A stretch of DNA of 41,328 bases from assembly GCF_010672525.1 (NCBI RefSeq), contig NZ_JAAHGH010000067.1, positions 1 to 41,328 of the forward strand. The letters are read 5' to 3'. Shown piece after piece: positions 3,417 through 34,627 of this stretch. Both the position numbers and the translations under genes were made by a program. Under the pieces are notes generated by a model that had not been told where the DNA came from, did not search any database, and saw only the letters and a list, made by a program, of their open reading frames with translations. The DNA is from Okeania sp. SIO2B3 (lineage in GTDB: Bacteria > Cyanobacteriota > Cyanobacteriia > Cyanobacteriales > Microcoleaceae). Position 1 is the stretch's first letter. Each line of letters begins with the position of its first letter.

Positions 3417-4157
3417 AACGTATTAGTTATCAGATTTTAGATATAGGTCTGGATAGAACTTCTTTTGAGTGATGATTTACTTTGAGTTAACTGCAACGTC
3501 TTAGTTATCAGATTTTAGATCGAGCTCTCTCGCGTACGCCTCCTGAGTTAACTATATATTTGGACCTAACTATAACGTCTTAGTTATCAGATTTTAGATC
3601 GAGCTCCCTCGCGTACGCCTCCTGAGTTAGGTTCAAATATGTAGCTAACTATAACGTCTTAGTTATTAGATTAAATATTGGTCTCTCGCGTACGCCTCCT
3701 GAGTTAACTACATATTTGGACCCAACTATAACGTCTTAGTTATCAGATTAAATATTGGTCTCTCGCGTACGCCTCCTGAGCTGACTATTGCTTCAACCCA
3801 AACGTCTTAGTTAAATTTTGACACTTAACTTCTGACTCAGGTGGGTAAATATCACTTAATCTATAGTTGAGATTCATCACTCAATTTTATTGCTTTTTAA
3901 AATTTAACTTAACAGGCAACTTTTTAGTCCCTACAGAAAACTAACTACATATTTGGACCCAACTATAACGTCTTAGTTATCAGATTAAATATTGGTCTCT
4001 CGCGTACGCCTCCTGAGCTGACTATTGCTTCAACCCAAACGTCTTAGTTAAATTTTGACACTTAACTTCTGACTCAGGTGGGTAAATACCACTTAATCTT
4101 AAGAATAGTTTCGTCACTCAATATTATGACTTTTCAAAATTAAACTTACAGTTAACT
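3417..4157. repeat. 79-bp tandem repeat array upstream of a glycosyltransferase 3' end
   Basis: Units marked by AACGTCTTAGTTATCAGATT begin at 3417 (degenerate), 3495, 3574, 3653, 3730, 3801, 3967 and 4038, with spacing of 71-79 bp inside blocks. Units also carry CTCGCGTACGCCTCCTGAG, with a CGTACG palindrome. A longer segment at 3705-3920 is repeated at 3942-4157, an offset of 237 bp, exactly three units; the second copy ends just before the stop codon of the glycosyltransferase at 4160. A 24-bp spacer is present in inverted orientation in one unit (3626-3649). No ORF of note; function unknown. Confidence 0.9.
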
Positions 4158-4159
4158 TT

Positions 4160-5461
4160 TTACAACTGCTCCAACAGACGAACATACTCTTTAGCAGTCT
4201 CCCTCCAAGTCCAATGAGAAAAGCGTTTATCTACTTCTTCAGCAGACAACTTACTCTTAGGATGTAGAATAAATTTCTCCATACAATTTGCTAAAGCATC
4301 CACATCACCAACCGGGAAAAAATCTACCATATCCTCACATTTATAAAGTTCTACTTGTTCCTCAAAAACTTCTAAGTCTGACACAATAGCAGGTATTCCT
4401 CTAACAACTGCCTCAGATAAAGCCAAACCAAAACCTTCATACTTAGAAGGAAAAACTACACAGGAACATTTCCGATACCATTTTTCCACATCTTCATCAG
4501 AGCAATATCCTAACCCCTCAAAATATTCCTGCATTATATTCTGATTATTCTGAGATATTTCCTGACATTGATTCAAATAATCAATATACTCTTGACTATT
4601 AGCTTGCTGAGATAAACTAATATTTCCTGCAATCAAATTATCCGTTTCTTTACCAATCAAAACTATTTTAAACTTCAGATTTTTTTGAGCAAGCTTAATA
4701 CCTGCTTTTAACAGAGTTAAGTGGTCTTTATAAACACCAAAAGAAGAAGGCAAATAAAATATTGGTAATTCATCATTAGATTCATGGGAATTTTCTGCTA
4801 AACCCAATAACCTTTGTGAAGGTGAAGCATTTGACTTAGTAGGAAAACCTGATATGGGTACAGGTGTTATTTTGCCACTAAATTCAGGAAAAACCGAGAG
4901 AATATCCTTTCGTGTTTTTTCAGAAATAGTAAAAACAATATTGACCTTTTTCAACCATTCTAATAAGCTTAAATCGTATTCATTAACATAAGATTCTGGA
5001 TAAGTTAGTGGTGAAAATCTCCAGAACATATCATGGGTGATCATTGCTAAAGGAATATCAAGATTGGGTGGATTTAATCTATTAGCCAGAAAGTACAAAC
5101 AATGAGTAGCTTGATAACGACTAGCTAAATATTTGAGACTAAACTCAGTCTGATATTTACGACGGAGACGCTTAAAAAAAATTTTAACTTTTTGTGCCTT
5201 AACATTAGCTGAGAAAGACGAAAACTTATCAATTAAAGAAAGTATTCGAGATTGTAAAGATTTAGGAGGTAATATAAATGATTCGTATTTAATTATTGGA
5301 GATTTAGGCAACTTTTCTTGAAAATGAGGAATATCTTTTTTTTGCAAAATTAATATGATTTCCTCTACTTCGTCAATTTCAATCCATTCTTCTACCGTTC
5401 CACAAATTACCCGTTCTATTCCACCTTTACGATAAAATTCAATAGGAAGTATAAGTTTCAT
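4160..5461 (-). CDS. Glycosyltransferase, GT4 (GT-B) type
   Basis: A 433-residue protein starting at ATG with a good ribosome site (TTGGAG, about 6 bases upstream). The N-terminal half begins with a Rossmann-like strand and a glycine-rich loop (FYRKGGIERV). The C-terminal half has the GT4 donor-binding signature: FPSKYEGFGLALSEAVVRG around 338-357, with the E-x7-E pair near 342 and 350, followed by a G-x-P-A-I-V-S-D strand. Enzymes of this family use nucleotide-activated sugars and a retaining mechanism to extend cell-surface polysaccharides. Acceptor and sugar cannot be read from the sequence. It stands alone on this strand, with repeat arrays on its 3' side. Confidence 0.85.
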   Translation of the reverse strand: MKLILPIEFYRKGGIERVICGTVEEWIEIDEVEEIILILQKKDIPHFQEKLPKSPIIKYESFILPPKSLQSRILSLIDKFSSFSANVKAQKVKIFFKRLRRKYQTEFSLKYLASRYQATHCLYFLANRLNPPNLDIPLAMITHDMFWRFSPLTYPESYVNEYDLSLLEWLKKVNIVFTISEKTRKDILSVFPEFSGKITPVPISGFPTKSNASPSQRLLGLAENSHESNDELPIFYLPSSFGVYKDHLTLLKAGIKLAQKNLKFKIVLIGKETDNLIAGNISLSQQANSQEYIDYLNQCQEISQNNQNIMQEYFEGLGYCSDEDVEKWYRKCSCVVFPSKYEGFGLALSEAVVRGIPAIVSDLEVFEEQVELYKCEDMVDFFPVGDVDALANCMEKFILHPKSKLSAEEVDKRFSHWTWRETAKEYVRLLEQL

Positions 5462-14766: not shown

Positions 14767-15771
14767 ATGACTAACGGCATATACACTGTAGCAAATGATG
14801 TTGTCTTCGATCAACTGGTAGCTCTACTCAATAGTATTGAGGTTAATGTTGATACTGATACTCCAGTTTGTGTTATTGCTTATGACAGTAATACTGCAAA
14901 AGTCCAAGCTGATATAGAAAAACGTAAAAATGTCCAATTTTTAGACAATCCAGAAATATTTGCCCCCTGGGAAGAATTTTCTTACGAAGCTTGGAAAGGT
15001 CATCCAAATGCTTTGAATATTTGGGCAGAAAAAGGGATTAAGGGAGTAAACCGAATTGGCATGAATCGTAGATATTGTGGCTTCGATCTTCAAGCTCCTT
15101 TTGAAAAGTTTATGTATTTTGATGCAGATATTCTGGTACTTAATTCTGTTGAATATATTTTTGAACAGTTGGATAAGGATGATTTTGTTGTCTATGATTT
15201 TCAGTATAAAGACCCCTCTCATATTTTTAATTTAGACTCGCCTAAATTGTTTGATGTTTTTCCTGAATCACGGATTAAATCTGAAATTTTTTGTGCGGGA
15301 TTTTATGCAGGAAAAAGGGGTTTATTTTCTGAATCACAGAGGCAGTTTCTAGTAGAAAAGCTCAACTCTGGAGAAGGAGAAGTTTTATATACATCTGCTC
15401 CGAACCAATCTTTACTTAACTATATGAAAATGCGATTGGATATTCCTGTTTATAACTTTGGTCTTGATTTACCACCAGAAAAAAGAACAGGTTGTTCTGT
15501 AACATCGCCTCATTTTGAAGAAAGGGATAATGTACTATATGATAAAGGAGAAAGATTGACATATCTTCATTATATTGGAGTTTCTTCTAAAAGATTTGCT
15601 AGGCTTTGTCAGGGAGAAAATTTAGATTTTCCCTATCGAGATATTTTTCTCCACTATCGTTATCTCCATGAACCCGATAAAAGACCAAAATTTACAGGAA
15701 AACCAGAACCCTATAATCCGCCAGTAAACATAATGACTAAAATCTTCAAAAAACTGGGTTTAAATAGTTAA
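14767..15771 (+). CDS. GT-A-like sugar transferase (Npun_R2821/2822-type family)
   Basis: 334 residues. The N terminus GIYTVANDVVFDQLVALLNS and the metal-binding DxD motif FDADILV (D119, D121) point to a GT-A-fold nucleotide-sugar transferase related to GT8. It resembles a cyanobacterial family that I believe is carried in databases as Npun_R2821/Npun_R2822. The C-terminal half has a conserved LHYIGVSSKRF segment, a common location for the metal-coordinating His in GT8-like enzymes. The last 33 codons (PKFTGKPEPYNPPVN and onward) are the source of the tails repeated in the array downstream. Divergent from the sulfotransferase operon. Specificity unknown. Confidence 0.8.
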   Translation: MTNGIYTVANDVVFDQLVALLNSIEVNVDTDTPVCVIAYDSNTAKVQADIEKRKNVQFLDNPEIFAPWEEFSYEAWKGHPNALNIWAEKGIKGVNRIGMNRRYCGFDLQAPFEKFMYFDADILVLNSVEYIFEQLDKDDFVVYDFQYKDPSHIFNLDSPKLFDVFPESRIKSEIFCAGFYAGKRGLFSESQRQFLVEKLNSGEGEVLYTSAPNQSLLNYMKMRLDIPVYNFGLDLPPEKRTGCSVTSPHFEERDNVLYDKGERLTYLHYIGVSSKRFARLCQGENLDFPYRDIFLHYRYLHEPDKRPKFTGKPEPYNPPVNIMTKIFKKLGLNS

Positions 15772-15780
15772 ATAAAAAAA

Positions 15781-17704
15781 GATAAAAGAAATTTATATGG
15801 TAGATAAGAAACAGGGGAACGCTCAAACTATCTATTTGTGGAAAACTGTTCAATTTCTGATGATAATTTCTCGAAAATTACTCAAATTAACTGGTTAGTT
15901 AAAATTTGAAAATCTGCCAGTAAATATAATGATTGAAATCTGCCAAAAATTGGAGAGAAATAACTAAGGAAAAAAAAGATAAAAAGCATCTATTTATGTT
16001 GTCGTAAACTACTGGGGGAACGCTAAAATTATCTATTTGTGGAAAACTGTTCAATTTCTGATGATGATTTCCCGAAAATAGCTAAAATATACAGGTCAAT
16101 TAGAATCTGATAATCCGCCAGTAAATGTAATGACTAAAATCAGCCAAAAACAGGATGAAAATAGCTAAGGGAAAAAGACGAAAGGCATTTATATTATTGC
16201 TAACTACAGGGCGATCGCTAAAATCATCCATTTGTGGAAAAGTCTTCTATTTATGATGATTTATTCCCGAAAATCGCTAAAATACACAGGGCAACTATAA
16301 TCCGATAATCCCCAAGTAAATGTAATGACTAAAATCAGCCAAAAACAGGATGAAAATAGCTAAGGAAAAAAGATGAAAGCCATTTATATTGTTGCTAACT
16401 ACTGGGCGATAGCTAAAATTATCCATTTGTGGAAAAGTCTTCTATTTATGATGATTATTTCTCGAAAATAACTAAAATTTACTGGTTAGTTAAAATTAGA
16501 GAATCTGCCAGTCAATATAATTCAGTAATATCTGCAAAGGATTGGAGAGAAATAACTAAGAAAAAAAAGAGAAAAAGCATTGATTTATGTTGTCTATGTT
16601 GTAGTAAAGTACTGGGCAATCGCTAAAATTATCTATTTGTAGATGTTAAATTTCAGATGATGATTTCCCGAAAATTACTAAAAGATACAGGGCAACTATA
16701 ATCCGAGAATTCGCAAGTAAATGTAATGACTAAAATCAGCCAAAAACAGGGTTAAGATATCTAAGGAAAAAAATGAAAGGCATTTATATTGTTGCTAATT
16801 ACTGGGCGAACGCTCAAGCAATCCATTTTTAGAAAAGTCTTATATTTCTGATAATTTATTTCAGAAAATAGCTAAAATTGACTGGTCAACTAAAATTAGA
16901 GAATCTGCCAGTAAATATAATGATGAAAATCAGCAAAAAATAGGAGAGAAATAACTAAGGAAAAAAAAAGAGAAAAAGCATTGATTTATGTTGTCTATGT
17001 TGTAGTAAAGTACTGGGCGATAGCTAAAATTATCTATTTGTAGATGTTCAATTTATGATGATTTATTACCGAAAATTACTAAAAGATACAGGGCAACTAT
17101 AATCCGAGAATTAGCCAGTAAATGTAATGACTAAAATCAGCAAAAGAACAGGATGAAAATAGCTAAGGAAAAAAGATGAAAGCCATTTATATTGTTGCTA
17201 ATTACAGGGGGAACGCTCAAACTATTCATTTGTGGAAAACTGTTCAATTTCTGATGATAATTTCTCGAAAATTACTAAAATTTACTGGTTAACTAAAATT
17301 TGAGAATCTGCCAGTAAATATGATGATTGAAATCTGCCAAAAATTGGAGATAAATAACTAAGGAAAAAAAAGATAAAAAGCATCTATTTATGTTGTTGTA
17401 AACTACTGGGCGAACGCTCAAATCATACATTTGTGGAAAAGTCTTCTATTTATGATGATTATTTCCAGAAAAAACAAAATTTACAGGGAAATCAAAATCT
17501 GAAAATCTGCCAGTAAATATAATCAGTGATATCTGTCAAAAACTAGGTGAAAAAAATCCAGATAAACAAGATGAAAGGAATTTTTTAATAATTCTTTCTC
17601 CAAAAAAATCAAAATTTGCAGGAAAATCAAAATCTGAGAATTTTCCAGTAAATATAATCAGTAAAATCTGCCAAAACTAGGTGGAAATAACTAAGGAAAA
17701 AATT
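15781..17704 (+). repeat. Ten-unit tandem array of fused tail and head fragments of sugar-transferase genes
   Basis: Units of about 197 bp start at 15781, 15978, 16177, 16372, 16569, 16772, 16970, 17175, 17372 and 17570 (steps 195-205). A shortened 135-bp step then leads to the intact gene at 17705. Each full unit begins with a version of ATGAAAGGCATTTATATTGT, the first codons of the gene at 17705 (MKGIYIVAN). After about 80 bases it switches to a version of the last 33 codons of the gene at 14767 (CCGCCAGTAAATRTAATGAC), a stop and a TAAGGAAAAA leader. The roughly 270 codons between head and tail are missing. Units 4, 6, 8 and 10 retain an ATG after a ribosome-site-like AAGGAAAA and open micro-ORFs of 32, 19, 38 and 5 codons; other units lost the ATG. 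Confidence 0.9.
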
Positions 17705-18637
17705 ATGAAAGGAATTTATATTGTCGCCAATGATAAAGTGCTTGATAATACGATCGCTCTGCTGAAAAGTATCCGATTATATGACACTGAGACTCCGATT
17801 ATTATGATTCCTTTTGATGAAAATTATCAGCAGGTAGCAGAAATAGTTACGAGTAAATATGGTGTAGAAATTTATCCAAATTTAGAATTTGTAGATAATC
17901 TTTGCAATAATTTGTATAACATTTTTGGTCAGGGATTCTTCAATACTCCTAACAAACAAAAAAAACAAGCTTGTTGGTTCGGACCGTTTGATGAATTTCT
18001 CTATATTGATGTTGATATTGTTGTCTTTGAAAAAATTGCCGATAATCTCAAATATCTGGAAGATTATGATTTTTTGTGCTGCGACTATCAATATTTAAGT
18101 GGGATAAAAAATGTCTTTACATCCAAAGTTCTAGAAAATCAAATCTTTACTGAAGAACAACTTCAAGATGTATTTAATAGTGGGTGGTGGGCGTCAAAGA
18201 AAAACCTATTTACAGAAAATGAATTATATGAAACCTTTGCCGAATGTGCTGCCAATACTGAGTATTTTGACTTTTCCGAAAAAACCACAGACCAGCCAAT
18301 TTTCAACTATATAGTATTAAAACATATTTCTCGGCGACTAAATCTAGTTAGACGGCCAGAAGGTAAAGGTCCAGGAAGTTGGGCAGGTAGTCCTCATTTT
18401 CAACAGGAAGGCGATCGCTTGATTGACCCTAAAGTAGGTAAACCTGTACAATATTTACATTGGGCAGGTTTTCGGATTGAACCAGGATGCCCTTATTGGG
18501 ATATTTGGGAGCATTATCGATATCTGGGTGAAGCTAAACCTACTTACTATCCTCAAAAAACTGAAAAGGAAAAAAGTCCAGGAGAAAAATTTATTGATAA
18601 AGTCAAAAATATAGTTCGGCAAATTAAGAAAAGTTAG
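17705..18637 (+). CDS. GT-A-like sugar transferase (Npun_R2821/2822-type family)
   Basis: 310 residues. A GTG 24 bases upstream is also in frame, but I choose the ATG at 17705 because AAGGAAAAA precedes it and MKGIYIVAND is the family's usual start. The metal-binding motif is IDVDIVV (D102, D104). The C-terminal half has SPHFQQEGDRL and YLHWAGFRI, matching SPHFEERDNVL and YLHYIGVSS of the gene at 14767. The role is presumably sugar transfer in assembly of the surface glycan. The head fragments in the tandem array upstream derive from this gene or a close copy. A dispersed repeat starts at the base after the stop codon. Confidence 0.8.
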   Translation: MKGIYIVANDKVLDNTIALLKSIRLYDTETPIIMIPFDENYQQVAEIVTSKYGVEIYPNLEFVDNLCNNLYNIFGQGFFNTPNKQKKQACWFGPFDEFLYIDVDIVVFEKIADNLKYLEDYDFLCCDYQYLSGIKNVFTSKVLENQIFTEEQLQDVFNSGWWASKKNLFTENELYETFAECAANTEYFDFSEKTTDQPIFNYIVLKHISRRLNLVRRPEGKGPGSWAGSPHFQQEGDRLIDPKVGKPVQYLHWAGFRIEPGCPYWDIWEHYRYLGEAKPTYYPQKTEKEKSPGEKFIDKVKNIVRQIKKS

Positions 18638-22729: not shown

Positions 22730-24127
22730 CTCCCATTATAATCTGCGATTTAACAGGAGGGGAATTGCCGAGCTGCAAATTAAATAGGTTTCGATTGCTG
22801 TTCAAATATAGCACTAAAGAGTAGTATAAAATTATGATAATTACTCATTGCTACAAAATTAAGCCTACTTGTGAACAGTCAGTCAAAATTGATTATTGGC
22901 TAGAACTTTTGCGGAAGCATTACAATTATGCTTTAGGCCAAAGACTAGATTGGTTAAACAGAACTAGATGTCAAATTGACCGTTGTTCATTAATTTCATG
23001 TCCTATTGGCGAGATTTCCAGTAGACCAGATTATTATTTTCAGCAATCAGCACTTAAACAGACAAAAAAGTTATTTCCTGATTACAAGGAAATATATTCG
23101 GAAGTTCAACAAATTAACTTACAAAGACTAGATAAAGCTTGGAAGCGTTGGCTAATACCTGACAAAAAGGGTAAGCGTGGAGGACGACCAAGATTTAAAA
23201 AATCAGGAAAGTTACGGTCATTTTGTTTCAGTAGATTTAATCATTCCAAAGCAGTAATTAAATTTGACGGAAAACAAATAATTACTACGAGGTTTGGTGC
23301 TATTCCAGTCATAGTTCATAGACAAATTCCAGATGGATTTACGATTAAAACTGCAACTATAACCAAAAAAGCTGATGGTTATTATATAAGTTTCAGTTTA
23401 GAAGATAAGTCGATTCCTAGTTTAATTCCTACAGAAAATATCAAAACTGCTGTAGGTATTGATGTAGGCTTAAAATACTTCTTAACTACCAATACTGGTG
23501 AGACTGTTTATGTACCTAAATTTTATAGAAAATCTCAATTTAATTTAGCAAGAAAGCAAAAAAAAGTATCTAGAAAAGAAATTGGGTCTAACAATTGGAA
23601 AAAGGCACAAAATAAAATAGCTAGACTACATCAACATATTGCTAGACAAAGAGAAGATTTTCATTATAAAACTGCTCATAAATTAGTTAAAGAATATGAG
23701 TTAATTGCTGTGGAAGACCTAAACATTAGAGGTTTAGCTAGAAACACGAAACTATCAAAATCAATTTATGATGTAGCCTGGGGAGCATTTATTGAAAAAT
23801 TGAATGCAGTAGCGGTAAAACGCGGTGTTCATGTCATTAAAGTTAACCCTCACAATACATCACAAAATTGTAGTAATTGTGGCCACAAAGTTCCTAAGAC
23901 TTTATCAGTTAGAACTCATTCTTGTCCTAAATGTAAAGTAGTTTTAGATAGAGATGAAAACGCTGCAATTAATATATTAAATAAAGCGTTAAACGAGGTG
24001 GGTATCATCTTGTCTGCTTGTGGAGGCTTAGGCATTAGTCAGCCTGTGTTCGCGTAGCGTTGCGTCAGCAAAACAAGAAACTTCTTTGTTTGAGAAGCTC
24101 CCGTTATCATCTCTGATTTAACGGGAG
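22730..24127 (+). mobile_element. TnpB-only IS200/IS605-type element (approximate limits)
   Basis: The element encodes one intact tnpB and no tnpA. Related 30-base motifs flank the gene in the same orientation: CTCCCATTATAATCTGCGAT and onward at 22730-22759, and CTCCCGTTATCATCTCTGAT and onward at 24098-24127, identical at 25 of 30 positions. The right one forms a perfect 8-bp stem (CTCCCGTT/AACGGGAG). Subterminal hairpins at both ends are typical of IS200/IS605 elements, which lack terminal inverted repeats. The exact cleavage sites lie somewhat outside these limits and cannot be fixed here. Without TnpA it could move only if helped by another element. Confidence 0.75.
22834..24057 (+). CDS. 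tnpB: TnpB, RNA-guided endonuclease of an IS605-type element
   Basis: 407 residues with an apparently intact active site. An N-terminal OrfB-type helix-turn-helix region is followed by an RGGRPRFKK segment near 115-124. The RuvC-like catalytic triad is D210 (VGIDVGLKY), E294 (AVEDLNIRG) and D374 (LDRDENAAINIL). The zinc ribbon is C346/C349 and C364/C367 (CSNCG ... CPKC). TnpB proteins cut DNA guided by an RNA made from the element's right end. The length matches the usual roughly 400 residues. No premature stop or frameshift is visible. Confidence 0.93.
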   Translation: MIITHCYKIKPTCEQSVKIDYWLELLRKHYNYALGQRLDWLNRTRCQIDRCSLISCPIGEISSRPDYYFQQSALKQTKKLFPDYKEIYSEVQQINLQRLDKAWKRWLIPDKKGKRGGRPRFKKSGKLRSFCFSRFNHSKAVIKFDGKQIITTRFGAIPVIVHRQIPDGFTIKTATITKKADGYYISFSLEDKSIPSLIPTENIKTAVGIDVGLKYFLTTNTGETVYVPKFYRKSQFNLARKQKKVSRKEIGSNNWKKAQNKIARLHQHIARQREDFHYKTAHKLVKEYELIAVEDLNIRGLARNTKLSKSIYDVAWGAFIEKLNAVAVKRGVHVIKVNPHNTSQNCSNCGHKVPKTLSVRTHSCPKCKVVLDRDENAAINILNKALNEVGIILSACGGLGISQPVFA

Positions 24128-26206: not shown

Positions 26207-26412
26207 TTTTAATATTTTCCTCTTTTTATATTTTTTATTTATTGAGTTGAGTTAAAGAAGCACTAAGCACTCAGCTGTATTCATTTTTTTTAACGTGGGA
26301 GAAGGGGATAGGCCACTCCTTCTAAACTATCGCTTGTGGTTGTCGGGAATTTTAACCAGAGCTGCCAAAAGCTTATAGCTAGTTAAACATGACTTAGGCT
26401 GTTTGGTTTTTC

Positions 26413-26844
26413 TCTGGCAAATCGCTATATATAGTGTGGCACTATAGTTTCTGTTTACTATATATAGAGTTTTTCCTCAGTCATTTGAAAAAAGGAGATG
26501 ATATTTCTCCTTGGCTTTTCTCTGGCAAATTGCTATATATAGTGTGGCACTATAGTTTTTGTTTACTATATATAGAGTTTTTCCTCAGTCATTTGAAAAA
26601 AGGAGATGATATTTCTCCTTGACTTTTCTCTGGCAAATCGCTATATATAGTGTGGCACTATAGTTTCTGTTTACTATATATAGAGTTTTTCCTCAGTCAT
26701 TTGAAAAAAGGAGATGATATTTCTCCTTGGCTTTTCTCTGGCAAATCGCTATATATAGTGTGGCACTATAGTTTCTGTTTACTACATATAGGGTTTTTGT
26801 GTAAGTCATCTGAAAAAAGGAGATTATATTTCACAACAAAAATA
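26413..26844. repeat. Four-unit 108-bp tandem repeat rich in CTATATATAG palindromes
   Basis: TCTGGCAAAT marks unit starts at 26413, 26521, 26629 and 26737, exactly 108 bp apart; the last unit drifts after about 26780. Each unit contains CTATATATAGTG-tgg-CACTATAG, a second CTATATATAG, and a hairpin AAGGAGA..TCTCCTT. Because 108 is a multiple of three, long reading frames run through it, but they have no ribosome site or recognisable product. A degenerate relative lies at about 27160-27205, next to the 3' end of the aminotransferase gene. The rest of the 26207-27217 gap holds no supported gene. Confidence 0.9.
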
Positions 26845-31137: not shown

Positions 31138-31725
31138 TTAGGCAGTCAAAAATTCATAATAAGGGCGGTTATCATCTCTGAAAAATCCTTTAGCCTTTGG
31201 TAAATACCCATCGAATGGTATATTTAATTTTTGACAGACAAAAGTTAAATCTGAGCGAATATTTTCATACTTACCAATAAAATAAACTGCTACTGTATCG
31301 TTAATTGTGTAAATATTTCAATTGTCTTTTAGGAATAAATTAGTATACTTATTCTTCAGCCAATTATCAAAATTAATAGATTTGTTTCGACAGCTATAAT
31401 AGTAGCGAGATATAGCTCTATCAAAAGGATTTCTTTCAAAACAAAACTTATAGTAACTATCCCAAGTTGAAGGTTCTATAACACTTTGAATTTCTTTAGC
31501 AGTGATATGGTTGAAATACTTTTTATATTCATTTCCATGAGCATCAAAATCTAAATAATTTTGTGGCCTTTTCCCCAGAAGTTTTCTAATAGCTTCATCT
31601 TCCAAGGAGATAGGAGTAATTACATCATCATCACCACAAAATCTAGATAAAGAAATTTCAACTGATGTGCCAGCAGTTTTTTTGGTTTTCAGGAAAATAA
31701 ATTTATATCTGTAGGATATGATCAT
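31138..31725 (-). pseudogene. Sulfotransferase B3 interrupted by an in-frame TGA
   Basis: The first 135 codons (from ATG 31725) carry the PAPS signatures KTKKTAGTSVE near residue 14 and CFERNPFDRAISRYYY near residue 95. A TGA at 31318-31320 stops translation. In the same frame 59 more codons follow to a TAA at 31138-31140 and contain VAVYFIGKYENIRSDL, the segment that matches VDFIGKFESLENDF of the intact gene at 13001. A single TGG-to-TGA change would explain it. The N-terminal fragment alone lacks the last part of the fold and is probably inactive. A sequencing error is an alternative. Confidence 0.85.
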
Positions 31726-32695
31726 TATGAAAATAGAAAATTAGAAAAATTATCCAATTGAGCGATCGCTTCTGAAATAAATCACCCTGTTTCTACTTTC
31801 AAAAAGTAGCAATTTTCTGATATTTAAGACTTTTATATTCACTAAATTCTCACTCTAAAAGTATGATATTAATTGTTAACATTCCCCTACTCCCCTACTC
31901 CCCTGCTCCCTCACTGCCATACTTCAACTATTAGGAATATGAGCAGCAACTTTTAAACCTTGTGGGTGATAAACCTCTAAAGGAATTTTGGTATTATTAC
32001 TATCCAAAGGGTTTTCTGATGGCTTAATCTTCTAAGGAAATAGAAGTTTTTTGTTTTCAGGAAAATCAAGAAAAATCAATTTATATCTGTAGGATATTAT
32101 CATTATGAAAATAGAAAATTAGAAAAATTATCCAATTGAGCGATCGCTTCTGAAATAAATCACCCTATTTAGACTTTCAAAAAGTAGCAATTTTCTGATA
32201 TTTAAGACTTTTATCTTCACTAAATTCTCGCTCTAAAAGTATGATGTTAATTGTTAACATTCCCCTACTCCCCTACTCCCCTACTCCCCTACTCCCCTAC
32301 TCCCTCACTGCCATACTTCAACTATTAGGAATATGAGCAGCAACTTTTAAACCTTGTGGGTGATAAACCTCTAAAGGAATTTTGGTATTATTACTATCCA
32401 AAGGGTTTTCTGATGGCTTAATCTTCTAAGGAAATAGAAGTTTTTTGTTTTCAGGAAAATCAAGAAAAATCAATTTATATCTGTAGGATATTATCATTAT
32501 GAAAATAGAAAATTAGAAAAATTATCCAATTGAGCGATCGCTTCTGAAATAAATCACCCTGTTTCTACTTTCAAAAAGTAGCATTTTTCTGATATTTAAG
32601 ACTTTTATCTTAACTAAATTCTCACTCTAAAAGTATGATGTTAATTACCAACACTCCCCTGGTCTCCTACTCCCCTACTCCCTCACTTCCCTACT
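31690..32695. repeat. Tandem array of a gene junction: sulfotransferase head, spacer, tail of the next gene
   Basis: The sulfotransferase start region (marker TATATCTGTAGGATA) recurs with GTAGGATA at 31711, 32089 and 32483. The 3' end of the 643-residue gene (marker CAACTATTAGGAA) recurs at 31925, 32319 and the real gene at 32697. Steps are 378 and 394 bp, the difference due to extra CCCCTACT repeats. Each copy keeps the first bases of one gene, the spacer with a HIP1 site and the last 20-25 codons plus stop of the other, while both gene bodies are missing from the internal copies. No full ORF inside. Confidence 0.88.
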
Positions 32696-34627
32696 TCAAC
32701 TATTAGGAACATGAGCAGCAACTTTTAAACCTTGTGGGTTATAAACCTCTAAAGGAATCTTGGCATTATTACTAATAGCCTTCAAAGCTATCTGTAAAGT
32801 TTTCAAATGTTTTTCTAGTTGATTCAAACTCTTTTCATCTTTATTACTTTTTAAGTCCTGAGCTGTTTTCTTGATTTTATCCACATAACCAGAAGTTAAA
32901 CGTACAGTAATTAAATCCTTCGTAATACTATATTCGCAAATTTTCGGTGTCCCCTTACAAGTCTTACTTAAATCTTGACGAGCTTTAGCTATAGTATCCA
33001 AAAATCTCTGGTTAGCTTGCGCTATTTTGAGAATAGTATCATAAGATTTTATCAGAGGTTTTGCCTTAGAAAAATAACTAGAAGTAGTAGGTACTTCTTC
33101 AGCAGAATTTAGAGCATTTTGCCAATATTTCACAGCCTCTTGCCAATTATCTTTTTTCTCAAAAACTTCAGCTTGTTTCGCATAACTAATAGCTTGATTA
33201 TAATATTCTTCACCAATTTGTTCTATAATTCTACGTTCCTCAGCTAACTGAAGTTTTTGTTCATACTGAGGTAGTAAATTTTCAGCTTCTAAATAGGCAG
33301 TTGTTTGTGGTGGAATAGAAGACATTTTATCCAAGGCATCTTCCCAACTTGAATATACACTTTTCCAGCTTTCAGGAAACCGAGCTACTACTTCTCTAGT
33401 ATTTGCTAACTGAGCTGATTTTTTAGCAGCAATTAGTTTTTCATCTGCTGCTTCTTCTGTGGTTAATCTACCTTTAATCGCCACTAAATATTTACGATAT
33501 TGCTGTAGTTTATTCTTGGCAAAAGCATAAGCACTACTATCTTCTGGTACTTTTTCTAGTAAAACAATTGCATCCTGCCAAAGTGATTGAATTTTCACCC
33601 AATCTTCTACTTTTAGTGGCAACCCTTTACTATTTTGAGCCGCTTTTTGACCTTTATTCAAAGCTTCTCTAATTCCTGCCAAATTTTTAATTTCTGTTTG
33701 GTAAGTAGATTTTAAATGCCGTGATTCAAAGTAATGTATTGACCAAAATGGAATCTTTTCTAAACTTTGAGTTGCTTTTTCTAACTTTTCTTGTGCCTGC
33801 TTTGGGGCTAGAGAATTTTTAACATTTTTGATTGTTTCTAATGACTGCAGATTTAACTCTTTTGCTGTGGGTATAATCATACATTTTCCAATAACACAGG
33901 GTTGAGTTATTGCATAAAAACAGCCTATTAAAATTGTCAAACTTAAACTTGCACTGAGAAATTCTACTTTAGAGAAGGTACTTAAATTAACAGTTGATTT
34001 TTGTTCTACATAATTAGAATGTTTTGTTTTTCTTCTGGATTTTTTAGGAGATATATCTAATTTTTCTATATCAAAAGGGTTATCTAAATCATCCAGCAAT
34101 TTTGAGGTAATCTTAATCTCTGAATTTTGACTATTATCTCCAGGAATATATTCTTTCTCAACATTAGTATTTAGCTCAGACTCTAACCTAATAGATATCT
34201 GTTCTAAATTTTTTAAATCAAATGGATTATCTAAAGAATCTAAAAATTCTGGTGTAATTTTTACTCGAGTACCCATATCTCCATCTACCCATCTCGGCAA
34301 AAAAGTTAATGTAGACTCTTCTTGCTGACTCTTTGTAAAAAATGAATGATAAGCATAAGGATATATATGACCAATAACATTCAAACAAATACCTACTTTT
34401 TCAATAGATTCTAGTTGTTGTTTTTGAACTATACCTTTTAACTCAGAAATTGTTTTTTCTCGATCTATAACTAAATTTGCTGGATGCTCACAAATCACTA
34501 ATAATGTTCCAGCTTTTAAGTCACATTGAATTTTACAAGCATCATTGAAATTTCTCAAAGATTGCCAGCTTTTTTGTAAATTATCCTCTAAGATCTGAGT
34601 ATTAATATTTCTGATTGCTGTTTTCAT
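32696..34627 (-). CDS. Large single-membrane-segment protein of unknown function
   Basis: 643 residues. The N-terminal 200 residues are cytoplasmic-like and include an internal repeat: VKITPEFLDSLDNPFD at 122-137 and IKITSKLLDDLDNPFD at 171-186. One membrane segment at 222-241 follows, then about 390 residues of repeated helical units (SLWQDAIVLLEKVPEDSSAY, SSWEDALDKMSSIPPQTTAY, KYWQNALNSAEEVPTTSSYF). These have a W-x-x-A-hydrophobic pattern spaced about 80 residues apart, presumably outside the cytoplasm. The pattern suggests a helical scaffold or sensor and is not an enzyme I recognise. Its last codons are duplicated in the array downstream. Confidence 0.75.
   Translation of the reverse strand: MKTAIRNINTQILEDNLQKSWQSLRNFNDACKIQCDLKAGTLLVICEHPANLVIDREKTISELKGIVQKQQLESIEKVGICLNVIGHIYPYAYHSFFTKSQQEESTLTFLPRWVDGDMGTRVKITPEFLDSLDNPFDLKNLEQISIRLESELNTNVEKEYIPGDNSQNSEIKITSKLLDDLDNPFDIEKLDISPKKSRRKTKHSNYVEQKSTVNLSTFSKVEFLSASLSLTILIGCFYAITQPCVIGKCMIIPTAKELNLQSLETIKNVKNSLAPKQAQEKLEKATQSLEKIPFWSIHYFESRHLKSTYQTEIKNLAGIREALNKGQKAAQNSKGLPLKVEDWVKIQSLWQDAIVLLEKVPEDSSAYAFAKNKLQQYRKYLVAIKGRLTTEEAADEKLIAAKKSAQLANTREVVARFPESWKSVYSSWEDALDKMSSIPPQTTAYLEAENLLPQYEQKLQLAEERRIIEQIGEEYYNQAISYAKQAEVFEKKDNWQEAVKYWQNALNSAEEVPTTSSYFSKAKPLIKSYDTILKIAQANQRFLDTIAKARQDLSKTCKGTPKICEYSITKDLITVRLTSGYVDKIKKTAQDLKSNKDEKSLNQLEKHLKTLQIALKAISNNAKIPLEVYNPQGLKVAAHVPNS

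Follow-up and report, generated by a model that had tools for sequence, protein, structure and literature searches.

The array of ten short units that separates two intact genes of the Npun_R2821/R2822 family, A and B, in Okeania sp. SIO2B3 very probably began as a tandem duplication of the A/B gene junction, which then grew in the manner of a satellite and decayed neutrally. The units are B-A chimeras, head-to-tail direct copies that are colinear with the end of A, the spacer and the start of B. The analysis covers a window of 41,328 nucleotides, that is the whole stretch of DNA studied, from a host genome of 10.0 Mb. All in all the array is a real and old satellite that is probably neutral.

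Architecture of the array and the source of its parts

The register of the array was set by MAFFT alignment of the stretch between A and B (Table 1). There are nine full-length units, spanning 194–207 bp, and one truncated unit of 135 bp at the downstream end that has lost its head, so that the ten units of about 197 bp described by the first-pass annotation are essentially recovered. Each unit comprises an A-derived tail of ~33 codons, beginning at about codon 302 of A, a spacer of ~10 bp, in which a ribosome-site-like CTAAGGAAAA is frequent, and a head of ~27 codons derived from B, after which the next tail follows. Tandem Repeats Finder places the array at 15687-17553 with a period of 195 and 9.4 copies, and detects a further period of 401 bp at 16249-17396. 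The inner units fall into two classes, in the order given in Table 1, and the units of the window differ from one another by 7.5–28%.

Table 1. Coordinates of the flanking genes, the array units and the second junction array in the window. Unit starts are those of the MAFFT register, and the step is the distance to the next start.
Feature	Coordinates	Strand	Step (bp)	Class	Remarks and basis
Gene A, intact	14767..15771	+			Npun_R2821/R2822 family (NF045582), 406.6 bits, cut-off 250; unit tails derive from A
u0	15658..15853	+	196		Starts within the end of A; A's own last codons and first degenerate B-head copy, start codon lost; groups across 4/4 array genomes
u1	15854..16054	+	201	II	Alignment, tree
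u2	16055..16249	+	195	I	Alignment, tree
u3	16250..16444	+	195	I	Alignment, tree
u4	16445..16650	+	206	II	Alignment, tree
u5	16651..16844	+	194	I	Alignment, tree
u6	16845..17051	+	207	II	Alignment, tree
u7	17052..17247	+	196	I	Alignment, tree
u8	17248..17446	+	199	II	Alignment, tree
u9, truncated	17447..17581	+	135		Head cut after ~4 codons; alignment; groups across 4/4 genomes
u10	17582..17704	+			Final copy of the A tail, running into the intact B start; alignment
Gene B, intact	17705..18637	+			Npun_R2821/R2822 family (NF045582), 333.3 bits, cut-off 250; unit heads derive from B
Second, independent junction array, same architecture	31672..32774	-	~394 (period)		Repeats the end of gene 34627-32696, the spacer and the beginning of gene 31725-31318

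The chance level for the similarity of the units to the ends of A and B was set by 200 dinucleotide shuffles each. All nine tails of u1 to u9 score above their best shuffle when aligned with the end of A (29–53.5 against 17–23.5), and so do the nine full heads of u0 to u8 when aligned with the start of B (19.5–35 against 17–20). The narrowest heads are both of class II, u1 (21.0 against 20.0) and u6 (19.5 against 17.5), and the truncated head of u9 is indistinguishable from chance (14.0 against 17.5). The proposal that the heads stem from the start of B and the tails from the end of A is thus upheld for the nine tails and nine full heads compared. The class I consensus head scores 30–36 with the B genes of the four array genomes and of the relative MO_207.B10, against only 12.5–16.5 with the C paralogue and only 7.5–11.5 with the A genes, which were therefore rejected as its source. 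Distant B genes also score low with this consensus, 20.5 in SIO2F4 and 12.0 in Baaleninema, overlapping the scores of C, and therefore only the close B genes decide the source of the heads. The consensus tail has its best score against A. The junction breakpoints are blurred, in that some 9 nt separating the B-like part from the A-like part are unassigned and microhomology is not established; this counts against an origin by duplication.

Both flanking genes score above the cut-off of the NCBIfam model NF045582, and the reading frame of A is open in all four array genomes. The protein encoded by B is 97, 97, 96, 95 and 94% identical to those of Okeania assemblies. A match to PF11051 (Mannosyl_trans3) is found in B, at 27.2 bits (cut-off 22) and over residues 2-113 only, while a Pfam search of A at E <= 0.01 gave no match. 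As the Pfam family covers only part of B and none is assigned to A, the label of sugar transferase is plausible but tentative. Genes that are sulfotransferase-like lie upstream of A, and an OrfB/IS605-family gene with a Cas12f1-like TNB domain is found at 22834-24057.

Relatives and the history of the units

How widespread is the array? A profile of eight window units was run against 52 loci (38 named and 14 further, many of the same places), and multi-unit arrays beyond the window were found only in Okeania SIO3B5, SIO2C9 and SIO1I7. The array is thus present in four of the five Okeania genomes examined. The comparison of unit number between strains proposed by the first-pass annotation, counting steps from the end of A to the last tail, gives 10 in the window, 5 in SIO3B5, 7 in SIO2C9 and 7 in SIO1I7. 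In the fifth genome, that of O. hirsuta, the array is absent and a different A paralogue (54% identical) lies directly before B.

The single-copy junction is found in MO_207.B10 (locus L032), outside the array group, where the A and B genes are orthologous (93.7 and 89.4% identical as proteins) and the stop codon of A is followed by 10 bp and the ATG of B. We have taken this arrangement as the putative pre-expansion state. Together with the colinearity of the units it agrees with the earlier suggestion that a tail-spacer-head junction has been copied many times. The same suggestion had treated the units as internally deleted gene copies, and this has to be revised; they are chimeras of two genes, presumably the by-product of a tandem duplication that spanned the junction.

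Other arrangements occur at the A/B locus of more distant genomes. Trichodesmium MAG_R03 has ~0.5 kb between A and B, with one relic A tail. In Trichodesmium MAG_R02 (L033:4740-5650) ~1 kb of other, gene-like sequence separates an A paralogue from a relic A tail before B, and in Hydrocoleum CS-953 (L029:276-2655) two A paralogues stand in tandem with a third A tail before B. These three arrangements thus mark a locus at which copies of A are readily duplicated and lost. Two further features are seen at the locus in SIO3B5. Upstream of the intact A there is a fragment of A (codons 1-137), the two being separated by other sequence (L024:1619-3878), and a MITE-like insert of ~190 bp splits the last A-tail copy and ends ~55 bp before B (L024:5752-5957); its inverted arms of 42 nt are 81% complementary.

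The terminal units of the array are orthologous between the genomes. In the trees, units at the u0 position group across all four array genomes, with support of 0.991 for the whole unit and 0.940 for the heads alone, where A's own end is excluded. A truncated unit of 123–135 bp is found at the same place in all four, and these also group together (0.981). The last tail groups across the three genomes entered (0.902; tails alone, 0.862), that of SIO3B5 having been left out because it holds the insert. Among the inner units, window u6 groups with u5 of SIO2C9 and u5 of SIO1I7 on whole units (0.997) and on tails (0.996). In the heads tree, however, window u6 pairs with window u4 (0.970) and not with these two, which counts against the duplication reading. 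This pair, and that of u1 and u8 (0.863), correspond to the head variants at 16569/16970 and 15978/17372 that had been noticed to alternate. The remaining inner units are intermingled by class. Of the 21 full inner units in the four genomes 20 were compared, and their identity averages 0.874 inside class I, 0.841 inside class II and 0.762 across the two classes. The 181-bp unit of SIO2C9 was left unaligned, and unit 1 of SIO3B5, intermediate in the trees, was counted as class II. With terminal units orthologous and inner units mixed by class, the ends are frozen while the middle has been turned over, the pattern of unequal exchange. This is in keeping with the earlier view of an old array that has exchanged units.

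A comparison of rates at the downstream end counts in favour of duplication and decay. For u9 and u10 together the K2P distances of three pairs of genomes are 0.117, 0.153 and 0.196, against 0.139, 0.141 and 0.117 at fourfold sites of A and B; the first and second codon positions of A and B diverge by 0.019–0.027 over all six pairs. The u0 head, with only 82 sites, gives 0.051, 0.064 and 0.091 in three of the six pairs, below their fourfold values of 0.141, 0.174 and 0.117, and 0.179–0.213 in the other three, all involving SIO2C9, above their fourfold values. The lower divergence of the u0 head in three pairs counts against neutral drift.

A model of origin and its alternatives

The proposed history has three steps. 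A tandem duplication with breakpoints in A and in B would have copied the junction and left both outer genes intact. Unequal recombination or replication slippage would then have enlarged the duplicated junction into an array, which would now drift without detectable constraint, presumably without function. The earliest inner copies may have coded for a small protein of chimeric sequence, since lost. The class I consensus is an open frame of 58 codons that runs from B's start codon to an A-derived stop and has a ribosome-like site, and hence the inner copies probably began as B-A chimeras that were in frame.

Might the units be active in some way today? That same consensus, with its ATG, stop and ribosome-like site, is what speaks for an array of small chimeric peptide genes, yet the present units have lost coding constraint. 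By an alignment-based count the start ATG is kept in only 8 of 25 full heads, and none of the 25 is open from the position of the B start to an A-type stop, the longest reading 49 codons (the last SIO3B5 head was left out, as were three truncated heads that lack a start site). Differences at codon positions 1, 2 and 3 of the unit heads and tails are nearly equal (0.221, 0.183 and 0.225), where nine intact B heads give 0.037, 0.000 and 0.204, and purifying selection by codon position was not found in the 24 of 28 rows compared, four gap-rich rows having been dropped. On these grounds peptide genes, an option raised in the first-pass annotation, are extremely improbable. The same annotation had proposed a substrate for the recombination of gene ends. 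In such a silent-cassette store gene conversion would carry ends from the units into A or B. In its favour, the units match both gene ends, sit between A and B and appear to swap sequence among themselves; moreover, in comparison with MO_207.B10 codons 301-330 of A are the second most diverged (0.131) of eleven 30-codon windows, an observation that counts against the junction-duplication reading too. Among the four array genomes, however, neither end is unusually variable, whether A is taken over codons 301-334 or 301-330: the difference is 0.039 for codons 301-330 of A (0.000 for the last four codons) and 0.033 for codons 1-30 of B, both falling within the values of the other 30-codon windows (0.011–0.107 in A and 0.017–0.111 in B). 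Donor variants were not found in the A ends or B starts of these four genomes, at one sequence each. The intact A ends group apart from the units (all five entered, 0.973), as do the intact B heads (all four entered, 1.000), MO_207.B10 being included in both, and the units carry stops and frameshifts with no open frame collinear with a gene. A cassette store is therefore very unlikely.

A role at the level of RNA is also unlikely. In this explanation the array would be a non-coding RNA or spacer element, transcribed with A and B and altering mRNA stability, the coupling of translation, or dosage. It lies between co-directional genes, puts 1.1–1.9 kb between A and B where MO_207.B10 has 10 bp, and commonly carries the ribosome-site-like motif; its retention in four genomes could reflect a putative role in the A-B mRNA. 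Against this, a search of Rfam up to E=1 gave no match, and the consensus fold of 20 units has 4 pairs at -0.58 kcal/mol, so that conserved or covarying RNA structure was not found by either route. Promoter-like sites occur at the chance level (13 against a mean of 11.0, sd 3.5), there are no terminators (0 against 0.7 expected by chance), the number of copies is variable, and the ribosome-like site is gone from u0 and u9. The same searches gave no positive sign of the small RNAs that had also been suggested. Finally, repeats are prone to misassembly, and the exact number of units in the assembly could be wrong, but an array that is an assembly artefact is practically out of the question, given terminal units and a truncated unit common to four assemblies and the extent to which the window units differ from one another. 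Duplication of the junction, with satellite-like growth and decay, remains much the best account; the neutral expansion listed among the original options corresponds to it.

Gene junctions, known systems and repeat background

The window contains a second junction array, in which the gene at 31725-31318 is sulfotransferase-like. There are three tail copies in the window, two in SIO2C9, two in SIO1I7 (where only one head was found) and one in O. hirsuta; the locus in SIO3B5, with one tail and no head, was left uncounted. Thus the same kind of event has occurred twice in 41 kb, at unrelated gene pairs. Since a second nearby junction has behaved likewise, and no sign of function was found, the array looks like an ordinary repeat expansion.

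A broader proposition is that these genomes turn gene junctions into satellites, by repeated independent amplification of the stop-spacer-start segment that can give birth to in-frame chimeric mini-genes with a ribosome site. We consider this unlikely. If it were true most mini-genes would decay, and some could become new small genes or operon spacers. The steps of bacterial satellite formation are readable here, because there is a series from the single-copy junction to a decayed array of ten units, with outer genes that are intact and under selection. The array shows that chimeric mini-genes can arise as a by-product, and cautions against taking every row of partial genes for cassettes. In other respects it is an ordinary product of a repeat-rich genome.

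There are partial likenesses to several known systems. Satellite arrays with higher-order units also have head-to-tail units, diverged ends, inner classes and variable copy number, but the present array is bacterial, confined to one locus and ~10 copies, and has as its monomer a gene junction with two gene ends. In mitochondrial genomes undergoing tandem duplication-random loss, a segment that bridges two neighbouring genes, from the end of the first into the start of the second, undergoes duplication and decay, whereas here it has been multiplied many times and persists as an array. Silent cassettes of the vls and pil type present a similar row of incomplete gene copies adjoining intact family members; here the reading frame is not preserved, and nothing points to transfer of sequence into the intact genes. 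The tandem repeats of Borg elements (PMC9879509) are intergenic, begin in some cases inside a gene end and are often flanked by partial repeats, but their units are reported there as perfect and recently formed, while those described here are ~20% diverged and common to four genomes. Satellite and higher-order tandem arrays are reviewed in PMC8122249 and PMC5615363.

Within the open-licence literature on Okeania, cyanobacterial or intergenic tandem repeats, silent cassettes and partial-gene duplication, the array is not reported in the titles and abstract openings among the matches listed. For Npun_R2821, and for Okeania with tandem repeat, no paper was found in that literature; higher-order repeats with bacteria gave none on bacteria by title, and cyanobacterial intergenic tandem duplication, unequal crossing or pseudogene gave plants only.

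Walworth 2015 reportedly deals with the noncoding DNA of Trichodesmium. Two other papers describe up to 9% interspersed repeats in Arthrospira genomes (PMC5741684) and Trichodesmium genomes as repeat-rich (PMC9950141). The repeat background was sampled with Tandem Repeats Finder in the window and 40 stretches of the genome, 538,419 bp in all, each of the 40 starting at the first base of a contig and so possibly enriched in repeats. Under the thresholds set, this gave 34 arrays with a period of 50 or more, of which 18 lie at most 10% in ORFs. In 400,000 bp of another genome of the same family, assembled in one contig, there were 37 arrays, and 14 of these lie at most 10% in ORFs. With 34 and 37 arrays in these samples, long-period tandem arrays are common in both genomes. 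Besides the array studied here, one mostly non-coding array in the 538 kb, that at 31.7-32.8 kb, touches ORFs on both sides by its Tandem Repeats Finder coordinates. Elsewhere in the window four copies of a 108-bp unit, with 95% match, form a tandem array outside ORFs at 26403-26832, and tandem repeats of 79, 156 and 237 bp lie almost wholly outside ORFs at 3488-4162.
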